Positions 29 through 45,959 of a stretch of DNA of 64,000 nucleotides are shown piece after piece. Each line of letters starts with the position of its first letter. Within the stretch, counting starts at the first letter, position 1. The translations under genes were made by a program, and so were the position numbers. Under the pieces are notes generated by a model. It had not been told where the DNA came from, did not search any database, and worked only from the letters and a program-made list of their open reading frames with translations. This DNA is from Pragia fontium DSM 5563 = ATCC 49100 (GTDB lineage Bacteria; Pseudomonadota; Gammaproteobacteria; Enterobacterales; Enterobacteriaceae). Location: contig NZ_FOLW01000005.1 of assembly GCF_900112475.1 (NCBI RefSeq), positions 1-64,000 on the forward strand. Direction: 5' to 3'.

Positions 29-105
29 GGAGCGGTAGTTCAGTTGGTTAGAATACCTGCCTGTCACGCAGGGGGTCGCGGGTTCGAGTCCCGTCCGTTC
101 CGCCA
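29..105 (+). tRNA. aspU: tRNA-Asp (GTC anticodon), aspU position
   Basis: A 77-nt cloverleaf that starts GGAGCGGTAGTTCAG, carries the anticodon GTC in the loop CTGTCAC, has the T-arm GGTTCGAGTCC and ends in an encoded CCA. It closely matches enterobacterial tRNA-Asp. A second identical copy lies at 10076-10152. In E. coli the matching gene ends the rrnH operon, so the 28 bases before it are probably the spacer after a 5S rRNA outside the window; that part is inference. A strong intrinsic terminator follows after 10 bases. Confidence 0.97.
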
Positions 106-115
106 CTTATTTTAG

Positions 116-145
116 AAGGCCTGCTATGATAGCAGGCCTTTTTTA
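116..145 (+). terminator. Intrinsic terminator after tRNA-Asp
   Basis: The inverted repeat AAGGCCTGCTA / TAGCAGGCCTT encloses a short loop and is followed by a T run. It ends the tRNA transcript, and the presumed rRNA operon upstream. Confidence 0.9.
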
Positions 146-886
146 TTGTGAGTTTTAAACATACCTATCTATTCTTCTCTCATATATCAATATGGATATT
201 ATTTTATAGCCATCGTCCTCTGCATTTAGCGCTTGATTATCTATATAGATGGAATAGATATGATTAGTCTAAGAGCAGATATTAAAGCTATGCTTAAACA
301 TGGGTTTTTATCTATCTAATTTACTTATCGCTACAAAGTATTGGGTGTTATTTCTTAAATTATTCCTCGCCGAGGATATCTTGATTTGTTTTTACTGTCA
401 GTATGATGGTGTGTTTTTATTGGTATCATATGTGAGAAGCTGTTTTTATAACTGAAATTTTATTGGTTATCATAATAAAAGTGAGAATATATTGATATAC
501 AAGGAATATCACATGAACTTTAATCTCATATATTATTATTGATTTTTATTAAATCTTATTCTCTCTCTTTTGTGATACTGGTATCTTATATTTTCCCATC
601 TAATATCAGTTGATTATTCTATCTGTTTAAATTTTAATTCTGCTTACTCTCAATTGAGGTTTTTTTTTAGTTTATTCATCTGTGATGGGTTAAATTTTGC
701 TATTTATTGAACAACTCTTCTGGTATTGAATTCTATTTTCTTATTTCTATAATCATTTCGACTTAGCGATTAAGACTTTTTATTATTTTTGCTAAGTAAT
801 TATTAATTAACCAATGTGTTATATGGTCATGGAGTTATTATTAATTAAGTGGCGTATTCGCATTATTTCAAAATAAGGAAATTATT
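146..886. other. AT-rich intergenic segment upstream of the microcin-like gene
   Basis: About 740 bases of strikingly AT-rich sequence with no convincing gene on either strand. The only small ORFs are very short (for example 19 codons at 260, and 9 codons at about 513 behind an AAGGAA). The 11-bp direct repeat TTATTAATTAA occurs at 800-810 and 838-848, just before the peptide gene, and could be a regulator site. No immunity gene is recognisable. The composition suggests horizontally acquired DNA that could be silenced by H-NS; this is inference. Confidence 0.5.
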
Positions 887-1030
887 ATGAAAGAGATTGA
901 ACTTCATCATGGTAAGAAAGCTGTTGGCGGTTGTTTGATTTGGAAACTGATCTGCTGGAAGCCTTGCAGACCTTGTAAACCAAAACCACCTTGTGGTGGC
1001 GGTAACGGCGGCGGTACTGGCCCTCGTTAA
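887..1030 (+). CDS. Class II microcin-like secreted peptide precursor (47 aa)
   Basis: A 47-residue ORF with an AAGGAA ribosome site at 875-880. Residues 1-15, MKEIELHHGKKAVGG, have the length and form of class II microcin leaders: MR/K-E-I/L start, hydrophobic residue before the end, and the cleavage pair Gly14-Gly15. Cleavage would release a 32-residue core starting at Cys16. The core has five Cys (16, 23, 27, 30, 36), two Trp, a Pro-Cys-basic segment KPCRPCKPKPPC and a Gly-rich tail ending TGPR. It has no acidic residue and a net charge of about +6. The next genes encode the matching C39 exporter and fusion protein. I recognise no family for the core. It could be an antibacterial peptide, a metal-binding peptide or a signal. 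No modification enzyme lies nearby. Confidence 0.75.
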   Translation: MKEIELHHGKKAVGGCLIWKLICWKPCRPCKPKPPCGGGNGGGTGPR

Positions 1031-1050
1031 TTCTTATCTGTAAGTAATAT

Positions 1051-1077
1051 TAGCGCTCTCATATATTGAGAGCGCTA
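1051..1077 (+). promoter_or_regulatory. Intercistronic hairpin between peptide gene and exporter
   Basis: A perfect 10-bp inverted repeat, TAGCGCTCTC / GAGAGCGCTA, lies 21 bases after the peptide stop codon and is not followed by a T run. Such hairpins between a precursor gene and its exporter commonly stabilise the upstream mRNA or attenuate transcription, so that peptide outnumbers exporter. The role here is inferred. Confidence 0.6.
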
Positions 1078-1139
1078 TATAAACCCTTTTAATTCCTTAA
1101 ATAGGGTGAATACGATATTAATAATTTGAATAATAAAAA

Positions 1140-3272
1140 ATGAACTTTTCATGGCCAGGAAGCCTGACTTCTCCTCATCAGGTACCACTTATACTTCAAC
1201 ATGAATATACAGAATGTGGATTAGCTTGTTTAGCTATGGTGATGGGCGCTTATGGCCATCGTACAACGCTTTCTGAATTACGGCGAGAATATCCAATCTC
1301 TTTAGAGGGAGGAACTTCTATCGCAGATTTAGCTGAATTTGCTATAACGAAAGGAATGACGCCAAGACTTCTTCAAGGGGAAATTGAAGATGTTCCACAG
1401 CTAACTTTTCCAGTTATTGCATTTTGGCGCAATTCACATTTTGTCGTTATTACCGAAGCAACTTCTTCCACTCTTTGCGTACATGACCCCATTTTGGGGG
1501 AGCAACAATATACATTAGAAGAAGCCCGCGCCCTGTTTTCTCAATACGTATTAGAATTAAGACCAACAACCAGCTTTAAAAAGCGTCAGCCTTCTGATGC
1601 ATTAAAGATGGGGACTTTAATTAGTTGGGTCAATGAGCACGGTAAGAATCAAATTATTCTATTAATGCTGATGTTCTTCGGATTGCTGTTGCTGTTGGCC
1701 GTTCCTTCCTATGTTCAGTTGGTTATCGATCAGGCGATACAGAAAAGTGATTTTGATCTGGCGATTCTATTGACCTGTATTTTTTCAATGGTCTTTTTGT
1801 TTCAGGCTATGACCCAATTATTAAGAACGTTGTTGGAGGTTGTGGCGCGTAATCTGAGTTATGACCAATTGAGCCAAACGGCCTGGCGGCATAATTTGAG
1901 TTTGGGGTTATCGTATTTTCAGCGTCGTCCTTTAGGGACCGTTTTGGCGATAGACAAGTCATTGGAAGCCTGTTCAGAATTTATCAGTAATGGTTATGCC
2001 AAGCTGATTTATTCCATCGTCATGGCATTGATTAGCCTGATATGCATGTTTTTGTATAACGTTGAGATGGCGGCATGGACACTACTGCTCATGTCGATAT
2101 TCTTCTTGATCCGTTATGCTTTGATTCGGCCGTTTAGACGAGCGGTGGATAAAGAGATTGCTGAATCAGCCCAATATGAATCGTTACTCGCTGAAACTCA
2201 TGAAGGAATTGCCTGTATTAAATCCAGTGCTATCGAAGCTGGCCGGGGAGCGGTTCTGGATAAGGCCATGCGCCGGTCTGTTGAAGCCCGCATTCGTAAA
2301 GATCAACTTACGGCCAAGTTTAATGCTGGTTCGATGATGGTGGTCAATGCCGAGCAACTGCTAGTCGTGTGCTTGGGTGCCTGGATGGTTATTCAAGGTG
2401 AGATTTCAATTGGTATGCTTTATGCCTACCTTTCCTATAAGCAATATTTTGCCGATAGCACTGTTGATGTTGCTGAAGGTTTACTGCATAAAGCCGCATT
2501 AGAAGCGCCATTGTCACGAATTTCTGACATGATGGCGACGGAATCAGAAGCTAAAAGCTTTGGTAATAAACGCTGTCCTCATCCATTACAACAAATTGAG
2601 CTGAATAATCTCTTTTTTGCTTACCCTAATCGCGCTTTGATTCTGGATGATATTTCTACCGTTTGGCATCGAAAGCAAGAAGTCGTGCTGGTTGGCCCGA
2701 GTGGTTCGGGTAAAACAACATTACTACGAATGCTGAATGCGATGTTAAGCCCTACCAGCGGCGATATTTTCTATGATGGCATCAATCAAAAAGAGATCAC
2801 TCCTGAATCATTACGTAAGCATGTTCGAGTTATCCATGCTGATGAACATGTGTTTTCTGGGACGATTCTGGAAAATATTTCTGGCTTTAGCTATCAGCCA
2901 GACTTATCCCGGGTGAAAGAGGTTTGTCGAATTGCTGAGATAGCAGAGGTTGTTGAGTTGCTATCTCATGGTTATGAAACTGAAATTATGCCCGGTGACT
3001 CTTATCTCTCCGCTGGGGAAAAGCAGCGTTTAGTATTAGCCAGAGCGTTGTACCATCAGCCTGATTTTTTGTTGTGTGATGAATTAACCGCCAATATGGA
3101 TCAGAAAACGGCGCATAAGATTTTACACAATCTGAGAGAGTTGGATCTGGGGCTGATTTTTATTACTCATACGCCTGAACAAGTTTATCAGCAGGGAGCA
3201 CTGTATATTTTACAACAAGGTAAGTTGATTGAAATTGATGAACCTAAACGTTATCTGCAGCAGCAAAGTTAA
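1140..3272 (+). CDS. Peptidase C39-containing bacteriocin ABC exporter (CvaB type)
   Basis: A 710-residue inner-membrane exporter that would cleave double-glycine leaders and pump out the mature peptide. The N-terminal C39 protease (about residues 15-145) shows the catalytic Cys in ECGLACLAMV, the His in SHFVVI and the Asp in VHDPILG. A transmembrane domain spans about residues 165-440. The ATPase domain has Walker A GPSGSGKT, signature LSAGEKQR and Walker B DFLLCDE. Length and order match CvaB of the colicin V system. It sits between the peptide gene and a fusion-protein gene, with only 5 bases to the next ORF. The ribosome site before the ATG is weak, so expression may depend on coupling. 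The outer-membrane partner would be TolC, encoded elsewhere. No dedicated immunity gene was found. Confidence 0.93.
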   Translation: MNFSWPGSLTSPHQVPLILQHEYTECGLACLAMVMGAYGHRTTLSELRREYPISLEGGTSIADLAEFAITKGMTPRLLQGEIEDVPQLTFPVIAFWRNSHFVVITEATSSTLCVHDPILGEQQYTLEEARALFSQYVLELRPTTSFKKRQPSDALKMGTLISWVNEHGKNQIILLMLMFFGLLLLLAVPSYVQLVIDQAIQKSDFDLAILLTCIFSMVFLFQAMTQLLRTLLEVVARNLSYDQLSQTAWRHNLSLGLSYFQRRPLGTVLAIDKSLEACSEFISNGYAKLIYSIVMALISLICMFLYNVEMAAWTLLLMSIFFLIRYALIRPFRRAVDKEIAESAQYESLLAETHEGIACIKSSAIEAGRGAVLDKAMRRSVEARIRKDQLTAKFNAGSMMVVNAEQLLVVCLGAWMVIQGEISIGMLYAYLSYKQYFADSTVDVAEGLLHKAALEAPLSRISDMMATESEAKSFGNKRCPHPLQQIELNNLFFAYPNRALILDDISTVWHRKQEVVLVGPSGSGKTTLLRMLNAMLSPTSGDIFYDGINQKEITPESLRKHVRVIHADEHVFSGTILENISGFSYQPDLSRVKEVCRIAEIAEVVELLSHGYETEIMPGDSYLSAGEKQRLVLARALYHQPDFLLCDELTANMDQKTAHKILHNLRELDLGLIFITHTPEQVYQQGALYILQQGKLIEIDEPKRYLQQQS

Positions 3273-3301
3273 GTAATATGATCGCAAAAGGAAAGAGCAC
3301 C

Positions 3302-4531
3302 ATGGAAGATAAATCAGATTTATCAGCACGTAATACCGCTTCATTTTACCGAATCAGTCTGGTGAATTTGCGTTCGGTAATATTACTTTTTATTAGCGCA
3401 CTGGTGTGTTTTATTCTATTTTCTATTTTTTTCAAATTCAATGACAGCGTTGCTGCGCGCGGTATTTTAATTAGTCCCGAAGGGGATATACAGGTAAAAG
3501 CGCCAGAGTCTGGTACGTTGATTGAATTTGCCGTTATTCCTGGGCAGAAAGTGACTGCCAATAGTGTTTTGTTTTGGATATCCAAGGATCATGGCGTTGG
3601 CAGTACGCCGTTAAGTAAATATAACCATGAGCGCTTAAGCCTTGAGTTAGAGCGCGCTAAGGCTCGCTTATCATTACTGGATAATTTGAAGCAGCAGCAG
3701 ACTCAACGATTTGAGCAGCAGCAAAAATTGTACGATGACAGTTTGCAGACGATGCGCACTAAGCAAGTGCAGCTTAAAACACTCAGTGCTAACGCTCGTC
3801 GTAAATATCAAGCCAGTAGGCAGCTAGCGGAAAAAAGTCTGGTTTCACGTACCGAACTGGATGAAGTGAATAGCAATATGCTAACGCAAGAGCTTAATGA
3901 GAAGATTGAAAACGGTAATATTTTGGATCTGGAAAATCGTAAAAGTGCCGCGGTGAGCGCCCATCAAATTGAAATTAATAGTATCGAGAATGAACAGTTT
4001 ACGCTACGGACTCAGATCAGCGATATTAAGCGCCAGATTCTGACGGATGGCACTAACCGAATTGCGGTACTGGCTCCCTCAGATGGTACGATTCTCTCTA
4101 TTAACTTACCGAAAGGCAGGGGGCTTTTAGCGAATGAAGAAACCGTAATGGTGCTTCGCTTGAGTGAGCCTGCGTATATGCAGGCATATCTGTACATACC
4201 GGCAACCGGTGTGGGTAATTTGGAAATGAATAAAGAAGTCAGACTACGTTTTGATGCTTTTCCGGTAGATAAATATGGTTCAGTCACCGCTAAACTGGAA
4301 GAAATGCACCCGGTTGCCATTGATCTAAAGTCAATGATGATTGAGGGGGATGTAAAACAAAACTACTATCTGGCACGTTTAACGATCCCTCCTTCATTTC
4401 GTGATGCTTACGGTAGCCAACATTTATTATTGGGTGGGATGACGCTAAATGCCGATTTGACCATTGACCGTAAACCACTAATCATGTTGTTGTTAAGTCC
4501 GCTGGAAAGAGTTCGTCAGCGATTCTTTTAA
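3302..4531 (+). CDS. HlyD/CvaA-type membrane fusion protein
   Basis: The periplasmic adaptor that would join the C39 exporter to TolC. The chosen start gives 409 residues and begins MEDKSDLSARN. It follows AAGGAAAG at 3288-3295; an earlier ATG at 3278 would add 8 residues but has a poor ribosome site. One transmembrane segment lies near the N-terminus (SVILLFISALVCFILFSIFF). It is followed by a lipoyl-like half motif, a long Gln/Lys-rich coiled coil (about residues 95-245), the second lipoyl half (IAVLAPSDGTILSINLPKG) and a beta-barrel. This is the family's usual order and length. It is almost certainly co-transcribed with the exporter. Confidence 0.9.
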   Translation: MEDKSDLSARNTASFYRISLVNLRSVILLFISALVCFILFSIFFKFNDSVAARGILISPEGDIQVKAPESGTLIEFAVIPGQKVTANSVLFWISKDHGVGSTPLSKYNHERLSLELERAKARLSLLDNLKQQQTQRFEQQQKLYDDSLQTMRTKQVQLKTLSANARRKYQASRQLAEKSLVSRTELDEVNSNMLTQELNEKIENGNILDLENRKSAAVSAHQIEINSIENEQFTLRTQISDIKRQILTDGTNRIAVLAPSDGTILSINLPKGRGLLANEETVMVLRLSEPAYMQAYLYIPATGVGNLEMNKEVRLRFDAFPVDKYGSVTAKLEEMHPVAIDLKSMMIEGDVKQNYYLARLTIPPSFRDAYGSQHLLLGGMTLNADLTIDRKPLIMLLLSPLERVRQRFF

Positions 4532-4738
4532 GTGCAGTAGAGCGTAGGGCCTACTCATTATTATCTGGTACCTATTCTTGATGAATGCATCGTGATGACC
4601 GTTCTTGACGTTTTTATTATTGGTTTAACGTTGAGTTTCTGGTTTGAAACCCCTATAACAGGATAAAGTAATCTTTATCTTCTGCTCATGGATGGGGTGT
4701 ATAATCTCAGGAAGAGAATTTCTTAATGACAGGCTCTA

Positions 4739-5533
4739 ATGGTGCGGAAAAAAAATTTTTCCATGAGGTATGCGGCGGGATTACCTGCCGAACGTATTTT
4801 CCCTGGTGTTCTTGCTGATACAGGGCAGTTAATCACGCCTCCGCTTCAGTCTTTACCGACGAATGGCGCGTTAAGCGTCATGGTGTGGAATATCTTCAAA
4901 CAGCAGCGAACAAACTGGTTAAACGTACTTAAAAAGTACGGCTTAGAAAGCCAACTGGTTTTGCTACAAGAAGCCCAGACTACACCTGAGCTGCTCCATT
5001 TTGCGACCTCTAACTATCTGGCAACAGATCAAGTACCAGCAATTGTTATGCCTCAGTATTCACTTGGGGTCATGACGCTGTCTTGCGCGAATCCTATTTA
5101 TTGTTGCCCTTTAAGGGAACGTGAACCGCTGTTACGTCTATCTAAATCGGCTTTGGTAACGGTATATCCATTAGATGATGGGCGGCAGCTGATGGTGGTG
5201 AATATCCATGCGGTTAATTTCAGCATTGGTGTCGATATTTATAAGCAGCAGTTAAAGCCGATTGGTGAGCAGATCCTTCAACATAAAGGACCGGTAATAC
5301 TGGCCGGAGACTTTAATGCCTGGAGTAGGCAGCGATTACATTCGTTATATCGTTTTTCAACGCTGACAGGATTACAGGAAGTCCGCTTTTCTCGCGATTG
5401 GCGAAAAAAAGCATTTGGCCGTCCTTTGGACTTTGTTTTTTATCGTGGATTACAGGTTGAAGAAGCATCGGTTTTAGTGACGGAAGCATCAGACCACAAT
5501 CCGTTACTGGTGAGGTTCCACGCTAATCCATGA
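4739..5533 (+). CDS. yafD: YafD, endonuclease/exonuclease/phosphatase-family protein
   Basis: A 264-residue protein very similar to E. coli YafD (about 266 residues), including [43 protein letters not shown] and ASDHNPLLV. These are the Glu, Asp-Asn and Asp-His motifs of the EEP nuclease/phosphatase fold. The exact substrate is not established; the family hydrolyses phosphodiesters in a Mg-dependent way. It is convergent with mltD, with 23 bases between stops. An inverted repeat, CCACGCTAAT / ATTAGCGTGG (5518-5546), covers its stop codon but lacks a T run. Its position before mltD-gloB is the conserved enterobacterial order. Confidence 0.95.
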
Positions 5534-41625: not shown

Positions 41626-42615
41626 TTAATATTCCAGCGTAAACATAATGGTATCCGTATAACTTCCGGCCGGTTTCTCCGGCTGGTTTGGATTAATGGT
41701 TGCAGTATAAGAAAGACTTTGCGTCACGCCAGTGCCGGTTCCGCTGTTGGTTGCTGGCGCGGTATTTCCCCAAACGGTAGTGGTATTAGGATAGTAAATA
41801 TTATATTGCAGCATATCCGTGGTGGTTGTATTTTTCATCTGGCGCCAGGGCGCACTATAGTTACTGCCATTACTGAAATAGGCTTTAAACGGGGTTTGTA
41901 AGGTACAGGTCAGCATAATGTTATTGTTAACCGAGGTGAACTGTTCCACTAATGCCTGACCCTGGAAGTTAACATCTGGCGTACTGCTGATCATGCAATC
42001 CTTGGTGACCGTGAGTGTGACTTTGATAGTGGATGTGGCGTTTCCTTTATCAATCCCCGTTAGCGGCGGTATACAGATCAGGGAGGTACAGATACCGTAA
42101 TTCCAGTTAACGTGAATATAGTCAGAATAAACGCCAGCAGGGACATTGGCATTCACCGAGGTCATCACATACAGAGTTGTAGAAAACCCGAGGCTAACGC
42201 CCAGTAATGAAAGCAAGTTAACGCCGGGTATGGAGGTGCTGAAGTTAAACGGAGTACCGAGTGGGTAAGGATATTTATAGTCTTTATCGGCATACACCGT
42301 ATAGGGAATTTTGGCACTTGAATTTTGTTCATTAACTAAATACAGCTGATTATCTGAAGTCAGCGTGGCAATCAGATAGTCACTGGGTAATACTTGAATC
42401 GCTAATCTGTTGCAGCTGAGTCCCCCAGGGCCTAAGGTTTTCTGGTTGGTGTTGTAAACGGTAAAAGAGCTGACTGTACCAAAATTGATTGGGTTCGGTG
42501 TTGCCGCCACGGAACAGGCTGCTTCGACCGCCAGCGTTCGAAATAACAGGAACAGTATAATACTGGTTTTAACCAGCCTGATGGTAATATGGATAGCGGT
42601 TTTATTTTTTATCAT
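41626..42615 (-). CDS. csuE: Csu-type fimbrial tip adhesin (two spore-coat-U domains)
   Basis: A 329-residue secreted protein at the distal end of the operon, the CsuE position. After a signal segment (TSIILFLLFRTLAVEAACSV) come two domains of the spore-coat-protein-U type, meeting near DKGNATSTIKVTLTVTKDC. The C-terminal domain ends with the donor-strand pattern GSYTDTIMFTLEY. CsuE is the adhesive tip of Csu pili in Acinetobacter. The symbol is assigned by operon position and should be read as CsuE-like. Confidence 0.85.
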   Translation of the reverse strand: MIKNKTAIHITIRLVKTSIILFLLFRTLAVEAACSVAATPNPINFGTVSSFTVYNTNQKTLGPGGLSCNRLAIQVLPSDYLIATLTSDNQLYLVNEQNSSAKIPYTVYADKDYKYPYPLGTPFNFSTSIPGVNLLSLLGVSLGFSTTLYVMTSVNANVPAGVYSDYIHVNWNYGICTSLICIPPLTGIDKGNATSTIKVTLTVTKDCMISSTPDVNFQGQALVEQFTSVNNNIMLTCTLQTPFKAYFSNGSNYSAPWRQMKNTTTTDMLQYNIYYPNTTTVWGNTAPATNSGTGTGVTQSLSYTATINPNQPEKPAGSYTDTIMFTLEY

Positions 42616-42621
42616 TATGCT

Positions 42622-45168
42622 CTATTGCTCTCCTGAACAGACGATCGTATTAAGGGCCAGAACACCTTTTGGTAACGGCTTAGGTAAACTGAAATGTGCC
42701 TGACACTGTTTATTATTATCAGCTCGCTGTACCACTAACTGGTTTTCCTGACTCAGGTTCTCTAAATAGGAATCCCCATCCCAACCGACATAGCTAACGT
42801 TATTTTTCCCGTTTAAATAGATAATGCTGCCCCTGGGAATCGGCACACCGTTGGTATCCACCAGCGTTAGGGTTGCCGGAATAATTTTGCTGACCGGAAA
42901 TTCAATAACCGCTCCACCACCTTGCTGAATGGATCGATATTTTTCGACCTCGGAAACTTTAATATTGGCAGGTAAATTGAGCGGATCAATTTCATATTTT
43001 CCATTGGTATAGGAGGTGACGGTTGGAATGAGCAGATATCCATTACTGTCGGTTTTACCCAGAGACTGGTTTTCGTATTTAACCGGAATATCGGCGTAGC
43101 CAGTGGTTGAGACCAGAGCAAAGGCGTCATTAATCGCTCTGGAGGCATAGACATTCTGTTTGATAGCCACCAGCGAGCCGCTGAGTTCACCCCAATAGGT
43201 ATAATCATCACTGCCGTATACCCCTCCCTGAATACGCATTTTTCGGCCAGAAAAGTCCAGACCAGCCTGTTTGTAATCACTTTGCCCAGATGGTTTTTGG
43301 GCATAGGAAACATTCCATCCGAGTCCTCCATCGGTGGGGGCGGAACGGCTATAGGATGCCTGATGTGACCAATTATTATGTTCGTCTCGGCTGGAGGTGA
43401 CTGAGGCACTTCCCATGTCTCCTAACGGAATATTGATAATCAGTTGGGCGCTATAGCCGGAAGTACCAATTTCACGGTTAATAGAAGCATACAGACTATT
43501 ATTGCCAAACAGGGTGGTGTTATAAGAAAGGTTGAGTAGTCGAAGGCGGCTGTTATCAAAATTATGAATATCGAAATAGCCAACGCCTAGCGTTCCGATC
43601 TGCCCCAGTGAAGTGCTACCGGTAATCTGATCGGTTTGTTTGTTTAATCGATAGCTGCTTTTGTAGCTTGAGAGATCGCCATATTCTTCATCACGCATGA
43701 CCCGCTGCGCATGGATATTAAAATAACGCTGGTTATAGGAATAGCCTATGGACTTTTGATTGCCGTTCTCTTTTTTTGAGTTACTGACCGGTTGGGGATG
43801 GGAACCGTCAGAAAATACCGGGTCATTGACCGGCTTGAATGCCCCGGCCTTGGCTTGACTGGTGCTGTATGAAGCACTTAATACACCGAAGGAACCCAGC
43901 ATGATATTAGCACCAGCACCTTCAACCTTTAGCGCGCTGGCCCCTTCTACGCGGCCTTCAAGCGTCATCCAGTTGGTCAGGCCATAACGCAGCGTTCCAT
44001 TACCGGCACTATTATCGTAATCAAAGTTTTTAACGCCATAGTTATTACGGATTTTGCCAACGGATGCGCTGAAGTCGAAGAGCCCTTGCTTGAGTAAATC
44101 GCTGGAAACATAAAAGGGGACAGAGGTATTGACCTGACGTCCCAATGGGTCGGTAACAACGACGGTGGCATCGCCAGCGCCATTGATATAGGGCATGGTT
44201 TCAATGGCAAATGGACCAGGGTTCACATTAGTACTGGAATATTTATAACTATCAATATAAACGTCCACTGCACTGGGGACTGCCGCTTGCCCAGCGAACT
44301 GTGGTAATGGATAAGTAATCAGGTCAGGGCGTGCTGAGAAATTTCGTGAAACCTGTAGCCCACCCAGTCTGACCGATGTGGACCATGGCAGCGAACCAGT
44401 AATAATGTCTCCCACACTGTATTTGAGCATACGCTGTTCATCAGTGTAGTACCACTTGGTGTCATAACGTAGATAGCGGTTATCGGTAGGGCCGTTGTTG
44501 TCAGAGCGAATGTTATGGTTGTAAACGCCAGTGTTGGACAGAATACCGAAAGCACCTAGCAGTCGCTGCTCAGTGTAGGCAGAAGTATAATCCGTCTGTG
44601 TTTTGCCCGTAGAGTGGTTAGCGTAAATGTCATAGTTAAACAGTAACCCAAGGGCGCTTTCTGCTGGGGTAAATTCTGTGGTTCTATAATCAGAAATATG
44701 CTGTTTGGGCAAAAGGTCAGACGGAATAGAGATTAAAAGCTGCTGTGTGGCACTTTCATAGCTGACATTAAGTCCTTTCAGCGTATCAACTTCTACTTCC
44801 GGTACATCGGCGATTTTTATTGGTAGTTCAAGCCGATTAAAGGACTCAGCAGACAAGTAATAATGATCGTTTCGGTAGGTAACAGGAACAACCTGATTTG
44901 TTGGGCGACCATTGATCACCATTTCCAGCATTAAGGACATTTCCGGTAGAGCATCGTTTTCTGCAACAGGCTGCGGCGGTAAATCTACTTTTTCTGTCAT
45001 TGCAGATGTCGTTTTTGCTGGTGAAGGTGGAAGGTGTTTATTATCCGATGCATGCGTTGCAGAAGAGATGAGAACGAGTAAAAAAGTCAGACGAGTAGCC
45101 ATCCCAGACGAGAGGATAAAACGTGAAAGTCCGATAAAGCTCAGGCCATTGCCGCTATTCATTTTCAA
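42622..45168 (-). CDS. csuD: Csu-type fimbrial outer membrane usher
   Basis: An 848-residue usher that secretes and assembles pilus subunits. After the signal peptide the N-terminal domain contains LEMVINGRPTNQVVPVTYRND, followed by the beta-barrel and plug (VDVYIDSYKYSSTNVNPGPF, YINGAGDATVVVTDPLGRQ, SRNFSARPDLITYPLPQFAG). It ends with the C-terminal domain AHFSLPKPLPKGVLALNTIV and a Cys. It overlaps no neighbour; 6 bases separate it from the adhesin gene. Confidence 0.93.
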   Translation of the reverse strand: MKMNSGNGLSFIGLSRFILSSGMATRLTFLLVLISSATHASDNKHLPPSPAKTTSAMTEKVDLPPQPVAENDALPEMSLMLEMVINGRPTNQVVPVTYRNDHYYLSAESFNRLELPIKIADVPEVEVDTLKGLNVSYESATQQLLISIPSDLLPKQHISDYRTTEFTPAESALGLLFNYDIYANHSTGKTQTDYTSAYTEQRLLGAFGILSNTGVYNHNIRSDNNGPTDNRYLRYDTKWYYTDEQRMLKYSVGDIITGSLPWSTSVRLGGLQVSRNFSARPDLITYPLPQFAGQAAVPSAVDVYIDSYKYSSTNVNPGPFAIETMPYINGAGDATVVVTDPLGRQVNTSVPFYVSSDLLKQGLFDFSASVGKIRNNYGVKNFDYDNSAGNGTLRYGLTNWMTLEGRVEGASALKVEGAGANIMLGSFGVLSASYSTSQAKAGAFKPVNDPVFSDGSHPQPVSNSKKENGNQKSIGYSYNQRYFNIHAQRVMRDEEYGDLSSYKSSYRLNKQTDQITGSTSLGQIGTLGVGYFDIHNFDNSRLRLLNLSYNTTLFGNNSLYASINREIGTSGYSAQLIINIPLGDMGSASVTSSRDEHNNWSHQASYSRSAPTDGGLGWNVSYAQKPSGQSDYKQAGLDFSGRKMRIQGGVYGSDDYTYWGELSGSLVAIKQNVYASRAINDAFALVSTTGYADIPVKYENQSLGKTDSNGYLLIPTVTSYTNGKYEIDPLNLPANIKVSEVEKYRSIQQGGGAVIEFPVSKIIPATLTLVDTNGVPIPRGSIIYLNGKNNVSYVGWDGDSYLENLSQENQLVVQRADNNKQCQAHFSLPKPLPKGVLALNTIVCSGEQ

Positions 45169-45179
45169 CTCAGCAACTA

Positions 45180-45959
45180 TTAATGTCTGATTAACGGAAC
45201 GGGATCTGGATTATTATTAATCAAAGCCTGTAGTTTATTGCCTGAATTGATATTTCCAGGTAACGGTAAATTTATGGTTGTTCCGGGTAAAACATAGCCC
45301 AGTAATCCATTGACTAAAGTTGTACCTGATTGGGTGCTCAGCTGTGACAGGCGAGCGTGAACGATTCCTTCATTGCGTATTTCAATGGATGGTTGGCCGT
45401 TTTGATTGGTCAGGCGATAGCTAAGTTTTGGGGCGGTCGCGGTTTTGATATCTCGATTTTTGGTGTAATCCGGATTGGTCCAGACGCCTGACCCACTGAC
45501 GAATAAAGGAACCGAATAACGCATTTGGAATTTAACGCCAATGCTGACATTTTTGCTGTCGTCGGGTTCATCTGCTTTTTTAGCCCGAGGGGCTTCATCA
45601 ATCAGAATTCGATAAGCGCGTTCCTGATTGGCCGGTACCTGAGTATTTTTTATTAGTCGGACTAACTGGCGTTTGCCCGGTTCAATTAAAACGAAAGGAG
45701 GACTAACGGCAATATCGTTTTGTTTTTGATATTGGTTTTCACCGTTGAGCTGCTGCCATTCCAGAACTCGAATTTGCATATAAGCCGGTTTGCTATCTTT
45801 ATTTTCCAGCCAGAGAGCGGTGGCATTTTGGTCGTCTTCAATCACCGGATCGATAGGCCAGATTAAAATGGAGCCTGCTTTGGCAATAGGTTGGTTATAG
45901 AGGCAAAACCCAATGAATAGGGGAATCAAAAAAAGATTGAGTCGTTTTGTTATTTTCAT
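45180..45959 (-). CDS. csuC: Csu-type fimbrial periplasmic chaperone
   Basis: A 259-residue chaperone of the archaic group. It has a signal peptide (LFLIPLFIGFCLYNQPIAKAG), then the G1 and F1 segments ENKDSKPAYMQIRVLEWQQL and IEPGKRQLVRLIKNTQVPAN, and RAYRILIDEAPRAKKADEPD. It carries subunits to the usher by donor-strand complementation. It lies 11 bases from the usher start. Confidence 0.92.
   Translation of the reverse strand: MKITKRLNLFLIPLFIGFCLYNQPIAKAGSILIWPIDPVIEDDQNATALWLENKDSKPAYMQIRVLEWQQLNGENQYQKQNDIAVSPPFVLIEPGKRQLVRLIKNTQVPANQERAYRILIDEAPRAKKADEPDDSKNVSIGVKFQMRYSVPLFVSGSGVWTNPDYTKNRDIKTATAPKLSYRLTNQNGQPSIEIRNEGIVHARLSQLSTQSGTTLVNGLLGYVLPGTTINLPLPGNINSGNKLQALINNNPDPVPLIRH

Follow-up and report, generated by a model that had tools for sequence, protein, structure and literature searches.

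The cassette and its genes

The DNA analysed comprised the first 64,000 nucleotides (nt) of contig NZ_FOLW01000005.1 of Pragia fontium DSM 5563 = ATCC 49100, here called the window; all position numbers refer to this stretch. Close to its left end, the plus strand carries a cassette of three genes: an open reading frame (ORF) of 47 amino acids (aa) for a small double-glycine (GG) peptide precursor (887-1030), a gene for a C39-peptidase ATP-binding cassette (ABC) exporter (peptidase-containing ABC transporter, PCAT; 1140-3272), and a gene for a HlyD-family membrane fusion protein (MFP; 3278-4531). Judged from its sequence, the 47-aa ORF is very probably a real exported-peptide gene, and the gene, its leader, and its cognate exporter are well supported.

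The precursor begins with the 15-residue leader MKEIELHHGKKAVGG (887-931), and the junction after the GG at residue 15 is followed by the 32-residue core CLIWKLICWKPCRPCKPKPPCGGGNGGGTGPR (932-1030, stop codon included), which contains five Cys, a KPCRPCKPKPPC segment, and a Gly-rich tail. The Cys residues are at positions 16, 23, 27, 30, and 36 of the precursor, with one CxxC (C27-x2-C30). The core has six Lys/Arg and no Asp/Glu (net charge +6, isoelectric point 9.6), and its computed mass is 3381.1 Da in the reduced form. Leaders were scored using a matrix built from eight leaders of the sister exporter clade described below (Erwinia, G027, G189, and G143; the near-identical Enterobacter plasmid leaders were excluded), which was run over the 3045 window start codons that give 15 stop-free residues. 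The ORF scored 22.3 and ranked first (runner-up, 17.8; left-out training leaders, 26-42). It also ranked first of the 3045 by summed identity to the two leaders of Budvicia diplopodorum (16 residues; next, 10), with 8 of the 15 residues identical to each. The ORF has a guanine-plus-cytosine (GC) content of 47.9%, compared with 26.9% in the adjoining flank, and a ribosome-binding-like motif, AAGG. Translation and leader ranking therefore confirmed the 47-residue ORF with its 15-residue GG leader and five-Cys, 32-residue core, as proposed in the first-pass annotation; that annotation had also raised conservation as non-coding sequence alone, and Budvicia was found to conserve the leader as protein.

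The exporter (710 aa) matched the Pfam models for the C39 peptidase (5.3e-28), the ABC membrane domain (1.8e-21), and the ABC domain (2.7e-26). Its triad residues C26, H100, and D116 were invariant across all six aligned exporters and lined up with the triad of PCAT1 (4ry2, E 7e-66); the domains and triad bear out the peptidase-C39 exporter predicted to follow the peptide ORF. The fusion protein was above the cut-off for Pfam HlyD_3 (1e-6) and matched NCBIfam TIGR01843 at 2.7e-27, yet below the cut-off of that model. Its start is probably at 3302, where a AAAGGAAAG motif lies upstream of the ATG. It had been called CvaA-like; a membrane fusion protein is indeed present, and the label was corrected to HlyD family. 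The genome of P. fontium has five matches to the TolC family (TIGR01844), three of them above the cut-off.

Relatives of the exporter

The nearest exporter relative found was that of B. diplopodorum (61% identical). Among 295 family-group genomes, 76 had an exporter match at E ≤ 1e-60 and five, including the P. fontium genome, reached at least 48% identity. A second draw of 392 genomes gave the identical five, and 394 order-level genomes gave two, both within those five (the draws overlap, and the best two or three candidates per genome were scored). For plasmids, the top three of 799 matching records were 49-50% identical and the fourth was 32% identical, among the 25 best listed. Exporter relatives above 45% identity were rare in the data searched. 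CvaB-labelled exporters were 28.6-28.8% and MchF-labelled exporters 28.3-28.4% identical, among 30 of the 799 matches listed.

In a 28-row tree, the exporters of the window, Budvicia, Erwinia, two Enterobacter plasmids, and three genomes formed one clade (100/100, stem 3.29), in which the window and Budvicia exporters paired at 99/100. The remaining 20 rows, namely CvaB, MchF, and 18 others, were placed outside this eight-row clade. For this tree, the 26 more distant exporters (L011-L035 and L043) were reduced to 18 and the two Enterobacter mori plasmids to one; the program warned of long branches meeting, which makes the deep placement less sure than the clade itself. One of these distant exporters is from the P. 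fontium genome itself, where contig C10 (L043:3958-6117) carries a second C39-type exporter with a fusion protein and a TolC-like gene; it groups with exporters of genomes G237 and G154.

The sister exporters, that is, those of the clade outside Budvicia together with close copies, were 47-50% identical to the window exporter and came from Erwinia persicina, two E. mori plasmids, an Enterobacter hormaechei plasmid record, and genomes G027, G189, and G143. Two precursor genes stood before each exporter gene; their products are 61-66 aa long, and the GG leaders have 15 residues. The 14 sister cores were all 46-51 aa long and Cys-free, and had at least two GxxxGxxxG runs filled with small or hydrophobic residues (this count includes the L037 and L038 pairs, which were left out of the 13-precursor alignment). 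Such glycine-zipper precursor pairs are carried by six of the eight clade members. Matches of sister precursors to the Pfam class II bacteriocin model were weak and below the cut-off (0.013 and 0.13). Fimbrial genes were located upstream of the sister cassettes; in the plasmids these are annotated as CS1-pili usher and receptor, and in the non-plasmid loci the labels are from ORF reading. The E. hormaechei adhesin matched EcpD at 6e-27 (94 bits, cut-off 900), and the chaperone was just below the cut-off for EcpB_C. In all glycine-zipper cassettes read (L004, L036-L038, and L040-L042), a gene for a protein of 244-250 aa separates the exporter gene from that of the fusion protein; the two such proteins tested (L004 and L038) matched nothing in Pfam or NCBIfam. 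Fimbrial genes and the 244-250-aa gene are both absent from the window and Budvicia cassettes. The exporter of E. mori plasmid pEn542 is annotated as two ORFs (L036:4594-6599) and that of pEn718 as one. By sequence, the sister cassettes fit the published description of Cdz-like systems; these have been reported from Erwinia, Klebsiella, and other bacteria, and adhesion or fimbrial genes occur in many of the reported regions (PMC5380434).

In Budvicia, the cassette has the same three parts, with two precursors, and lies between yhbQ- and yhbP-like genes, named after those of Escherichia coli. The precursor cores are SVAFSGFFTIKPTICFGPPKLMKPCKPRRCC (peptide 1) and FFFWTVIKHIGDLFNIKINIGCGGRTFSNK (peptide 2, with a single Cys), so that the payload in the two genera consists of cationic peptides of 30-32 residues with one to five Cys. 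The Budvicia precursors are in a tandem duplication with a spacing of 1.2 kilobases (kb), in which yhbQ and the start of the exporter are also duplicated in degraded form. The two copies were compared piecewise and scored against 200 shuffles. The 5' flank was 72% identical (about 15 standard deviations [sd] above shuffles), the leader 80% (about 9 sd), the core 56% (about 1.3 sd), and the 3' flank about 75-80% (about 20 sd). With flanks and leader kept and the core at noise level, the Budvicia cores have changed much faster than the leader and the non-coding neighbours. A conserved leader with a fast core is typical of arms-race payloads. The window core aligns with peptide 1 at IC[WF] and PCKP.

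Database searches

The window precursor had no match in Pfam or NCBIfam at E ≤ 1; its two PHROGs matches (0.05 and 0.08) were weak and hit families lacking an assigned function. Budvicia peptide 1 matched PHROGs at 0.42. A match of peptide 2 to NCBIfam MPN313 (0.026) was far below the cut-off and was disregarded. PADLOC gave no matches. A tblastn search of the precursor against 72,556 plasmid records gave no match at E ≤ 10, a search for a second copy in the P. fontium genome gave a weak match alone (E 0.15), and the DNA of the Enterobacter precursors had no match in E. coli genomes. A precursor profile run over 392 genomes matched 23 at E ≤ 0.1, of which only P. fontium (7e-22) and Budvicia (2e-23 and 3e-16) were strong; the other 21 were at 4e-4 or weaker. 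Four of these 21 were inspected; one is a GG-leader ORF and three are not precursor-like. The former, in genome G252 (L054:1501-1701, E 0.011), encodes 66 aa with the 15-residue GG leader MKKMAMSQAETIVGG and a 51-residue, four-Cys core; the best two weak matches (G072 and G373) have internal stops. An IMG/VR scan gave 10 loci with exporters 25-30% identical. The window peptide was not found in the literature searched on microcins and bacteriocins in Pragia and Budvicia, a search from which most subscription papers and all supplements fell outside. Contact-dependent killing in Proteus (PMC8386478) was considered as the same system and dropped, the accessible part of that report not naming the genes for killing.

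Site and surrounding features

The cassette site is bordered on the left by a tRNA-Asp gene (29-105, plus strand, ARAGORN), just before which the contig ends, so that the left side is visible only that far. An AT-rich region with 26.9% GC (106-886) follows, in which ORF scanning gave no credible immunity ORF. The right border is a yafD-like chromosomal gene (4739-5533, plus strand; NCBIfam NF003841, above the cut-off), yafD being the name of the E. coli gene. This yafD-like gene was matched in all six genomes searched, including that of P. fontium. The interval between tRNA-Asp and yafD varies among relatives (loci L046 and L075-L078 compared with window positions 29-5533). In G237, it is an empty gap of 275 bases, and in G142 it holds other genes. 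Other material, by ORF reading type VI secretion system-like and integrase-like, lies beside yafD in G046 and G179, and tRNA-Asp was absent from the stretches read beside yafD in these two genomes. Because the same three-part cassette is found at unrelated sites in the window and Budvicia, it looks movable. Its recurrence at those sites in two genera also suggests that the cassette needs no further genes, and the PCAT unit is judged real, intact, and probably mobile.

Between the precursor and exporter genes, folding predicted a hairpin with an 11-pair stem (1051-1077). All six lineages folded had a hairpin after the last precursor and ahead of the exporter, in a set that left out G143 and E. 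mori and was run without a shuffle control. No strong T run accompanies the window hairpin; terminator-like T runs come after the hairpins of Erwinia, E. hormaechei, and G027, and a weaker run after that of G189. We infer that the window hairpin is an attenuator or an mRNA-end stabiliser. A promoter scan gave 15 sites against 14.2 expected, and the result was not used.

Farther along the window, a phage-tail-like cluster (12384-33000) contains sheath-like, baseplate-like, and tail-fibre-like ORFs by ORF reading. Five tail-fibre-like ORFs (23520, 25227, 27635, 29113, and 30723) share a near-identical N-terminal segment and differ in their C-termini, and a sixth (21588) is related; the cluster may be a tailocin or a prophage with alternative fibres. 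On the minus strand, a chaperone-usher-like fimbrial cluster (41626-45959; chaperone, usher, and pilin- or adhesin-like ORFs by reading) lies 37 kb from the cassette.

Proposed function

The preferred reading is that the window peptide is a processed and exported antibacterial peptide, a payload-swapped version of a known type of system, to which we assign a probability of about 0.55. Export of the processed peptide is highly likely, and antibacterial action is given slightly better than even odds. We infer cleavage, export, disulfides, killing, and self-protection along the following lines. The three genes would together make up an autonomous unit producing a small secreted peptide; more precursor than exporter is probably made, because the hairpin separates their genes. 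The C39 domain of the exporter would read the 15-residue leader and cut after Gly15, and the 32-residue core would then pass through the exporter, the fusion protein, and a chromosomal TolC-type channel. Cys residues may pair in the periplasm or outside, five Cys leaving one free thiol or giving a dimer. The hydrophobic N-terminal half and the cationic Pro/Cys segment would let the peptide work on the cell envelope of competitors, probably related bacteria. The producer might escape because its target is altered or missing, because export is prompt, or because an unlinked gene protects it; protection might also be incomplete, as in bacteroidetocin producers.

An adjacent immunity gene is expected of class II microcins (PMC9746304, PMC13101503). 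On neither strand does the interval 106-900 contain a complete ORF of at least 25 aa with a ribosome-binding-like motif. The longest ORF in it, at 300-455, has 51 aa, a length reached by 75 of 200 Markov shuffles; its product is hydrophobic, no such motif precedes it, and nothing related turned up in the Budvicia loci (best E 3.7). An antisense TTG ORF of 32 aa (885-983) carries a ribosome-binding-like motif, and further small ORFs of 25-37 aa (1075-1188 and 4723-4836) do not. The ORFs at 300-455 and 885-983 are weak immunity candidates, and an unlinked immunity gene may be located elsewhere. In Budvicia, the motif-bearing ORFs of at least 25 aa in the stretch from yhbQ to the exporter (L003, 3868-6050) are the two precursors, an exporter remnant of 67 aa, and an overlapping ORF of 37 aa. 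The earlier observation that no immunity gene was visible was thus borne out, as no credible immunity ORF was found near the cassette.

The missing immunity ORF in 106-900 counts against a weapon, and so do several other points. The window core scored about 5 sd over shuffles against Budvicia peptide 2 and about 2 sd against peptide 1, and the residual 5-sd signal means that the window and Budvicia cores are not wholly unrelated. Core divergence could also be replacement or relaxed constraint, and the payload type was present in just two genera among the genomes searched, too few for a rate test. Leader codon differences between the window and Budvicia were mildly biased to third positions (8/15 and 9/18) and those between the two Budvicia leaders were not (4/9); with so mild a bias, codon-position counts add little to the gene call. 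The AlphaFold model of the precursor (predicted local distance difference test [pLDDT] 48, predicted template modelling score [pTM] 0.14) gave no structural support. The Neisseria Naps, similar small GG peptides, act in autolysis rather than in killing of competitors (PMC11798529).

The Naps are the model for an alternative that we consider unlikely, in which the exported peptide acts on the producer population itself as a signal or as an autolysis or self-limitation factor. A peptide of this kind, not being a weapon, would need no immunity gene, in keeping with the lack of a credible one in the window and of any motif-bearing ORF of at least 25 aa beyond the precursors, exporter remnant, and overlapping ORF in the Budvicia stretch; Nap cores are likewise cationic, 16-36 aa long, and cut at GG sites. 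Yet the cassette ORFs include no sensor kinase or regulator, and the Naps themselves do have a LagC-like protein, NapI (PMC11798529). Divergence of the cores behind stable leaders also speaks weakly against self-action. Peptide signals too, however, can diverge into types. Less likely again is a cell-surface, contact-dependent toxin of the Cdz-like kind that shares the exporter clade and differs in its core. The nearest exporters outside Budvicia carry two glycine-zipper precursors beside fimbrial genes, many of the published Cdz-like regions, which come from Erwinia and Klebsiella among other bacteria, contain adhesion or fimbrial genes (PMC5380434), the GxxxGxxxG spacing occurs once in the Gly-rich tail of the window core, and the window has its own chaperone-usher-like cluster. 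That cluster is 37 kb away, however, the cassette has no 244-250-aa partner gene, and the tail spacing is filled with Gly, Asn, and Thr instead of small hydrophobic residues, the A/V/I/L/M/F/G share being 34% in the window core and 67-80% in the 14 sister precursors.

Five Cys in 32 residues, with one CxxC, would also suit a Cys cluster that binds metal or buffers redox without harming cells, but Budvicia peptide 2 has one Cys beside the same exporter type, and no metal-uptake gene was seen among the ORFs adjoining the cassette; this role is improbable. The same holds, even more so, for the idea that the cassette is decaying and has ceased to produce its precursor: degraded remains of an exporter start and of yhbQ come after the first Budvicia copy, and the exporter of pEn542 is split, but none of the three window genes is disrupted, and the triad residues, the leader, and a ribosome-binding-like motif are all present.

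A tentative and rather doubtful generalisation goes further: Budviciaceae may have an unrecognised family of cationic bacteriocins of about 30 residues with one to five Cys and no need of a dedicated immunity gene, carried on a mobile three-gene cassette whose exporter has a common origin with those of Cdz-like glycine-zipper systems, with the payload swapped behind a conserved leader and the producer spared by target variation or prompt export. Should the peptide kill, the PCAT-exported bacteriocins of Enterobacterales would extend to cores about half the accepted size. Glycine-zipper payloads and Cys/Pro-rich ones would then share one exporter clade and one leader type, and the order would gain a bacteriocin unit that lacks an immunity gene of its own. 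A peptide of this length and with so little similarity may escape pipelines trained on verified microcins. The core is small enough for synthesis, so that receptor and self-protection are directly testable.

Comparison with known systems

The peptide had been proposed as a possible class II microcin. The GG leader, the triad-bearing PCAT, the nearby fusion protein, and the TolC-family proteins support this assignment, and the size, the lack of an immunity gene, and the exporter group speak against it. Class II microcins (V, H47, and others) have the same kind of GG leader, a C39 PCAT with the triad, which their export requires (PMC9746304), and a fusion protein; a TolC pathway is likely for the window peptide. 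Leaders of 15 residues follow from the published lengths of microcins G492 and E492 (PMC10233263). The remark that the window peptide is much smaller than known class II microcins was correct, its 47-aa precursor and 32-aa core comparing with verified precursors of 75-120 aa (PMC9746304) and cores of 60-90 aa (PMC10233263). Class II microcins also differ in having an adjacent immunity gene, none being found in the window. The CvaB and MchF exporters are about 28-29% identical to the window exporter and outside its clade, and the MFP gene precedes the PCAT gene beside the cvaB and mchF copies read, whereas the order is reversed in the window. A microcin survey reported matches in 100% of three Budviciaceae species (PMC9746304); the window peptide is unlikely to be among them, because it is short and without similarity.

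Cdz and Cdz-like systems resemble the cassette in having a type I exporter unit and small GG-leader peptides, and the window exporter is kin to those of the glycine-zipper systems. They differ in that the window peptide has no hydrophobic glycine zipper (the bare GxxxGxxxG spacing at residue 37 has no run filled with small or hydrophobic residues), a core of 32 aa against 46-51 aa in the sisters, and no adjoining fimbrial genes; nor was a credible ORF for CdzI-like immunity seen. The likeness is one to the published description and the sister exporters.

Small GG peptides in Gram-negative bacteria are not unprecedented, given the sizes of the Neisseria Naps and the bacteroidetocins. The Naps, GG peptides whose cationic cores measure 36, 16, and 31 aa, come with a C39 peptidase, and what is reported for them is a role in autolysis and no killing of competitors (PMC11798529); they are unlike the window system in their outer-membrane FapF-like exporter, the immunity-like napI gene, and the autolysis role. 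Bacteroidetocins are from a different phylum, and the likeness is one of description. As a group they are marked by GG leaders of 15-16 aa and small basic cores with at least two Cys; the window peptide would suit this in leader, charge, and Cys, but its core is shorter. They have 15-aa GG leaders and small, basic, Cys-bearing cores (42 aa, four Cys, charges of +2 and +6), a peptidase-ABC exporter, and no obvious immunity gene, and their producers were self-inhibited in overlay assays (PMC6671954). The first five are 42-48 aa long with four Cys, compared with the 32-aa, five-Cys core of the window, and their loci have a gene for a transmembrane protein and mostly one for a thiol oxidoreductase, while the window cassette consists of precursor, PCAT, and MFP only. 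By analogy, bacteroidetocins would be a better functional parallel to the window peptide than class II microcins, with the Naps as a warning case.

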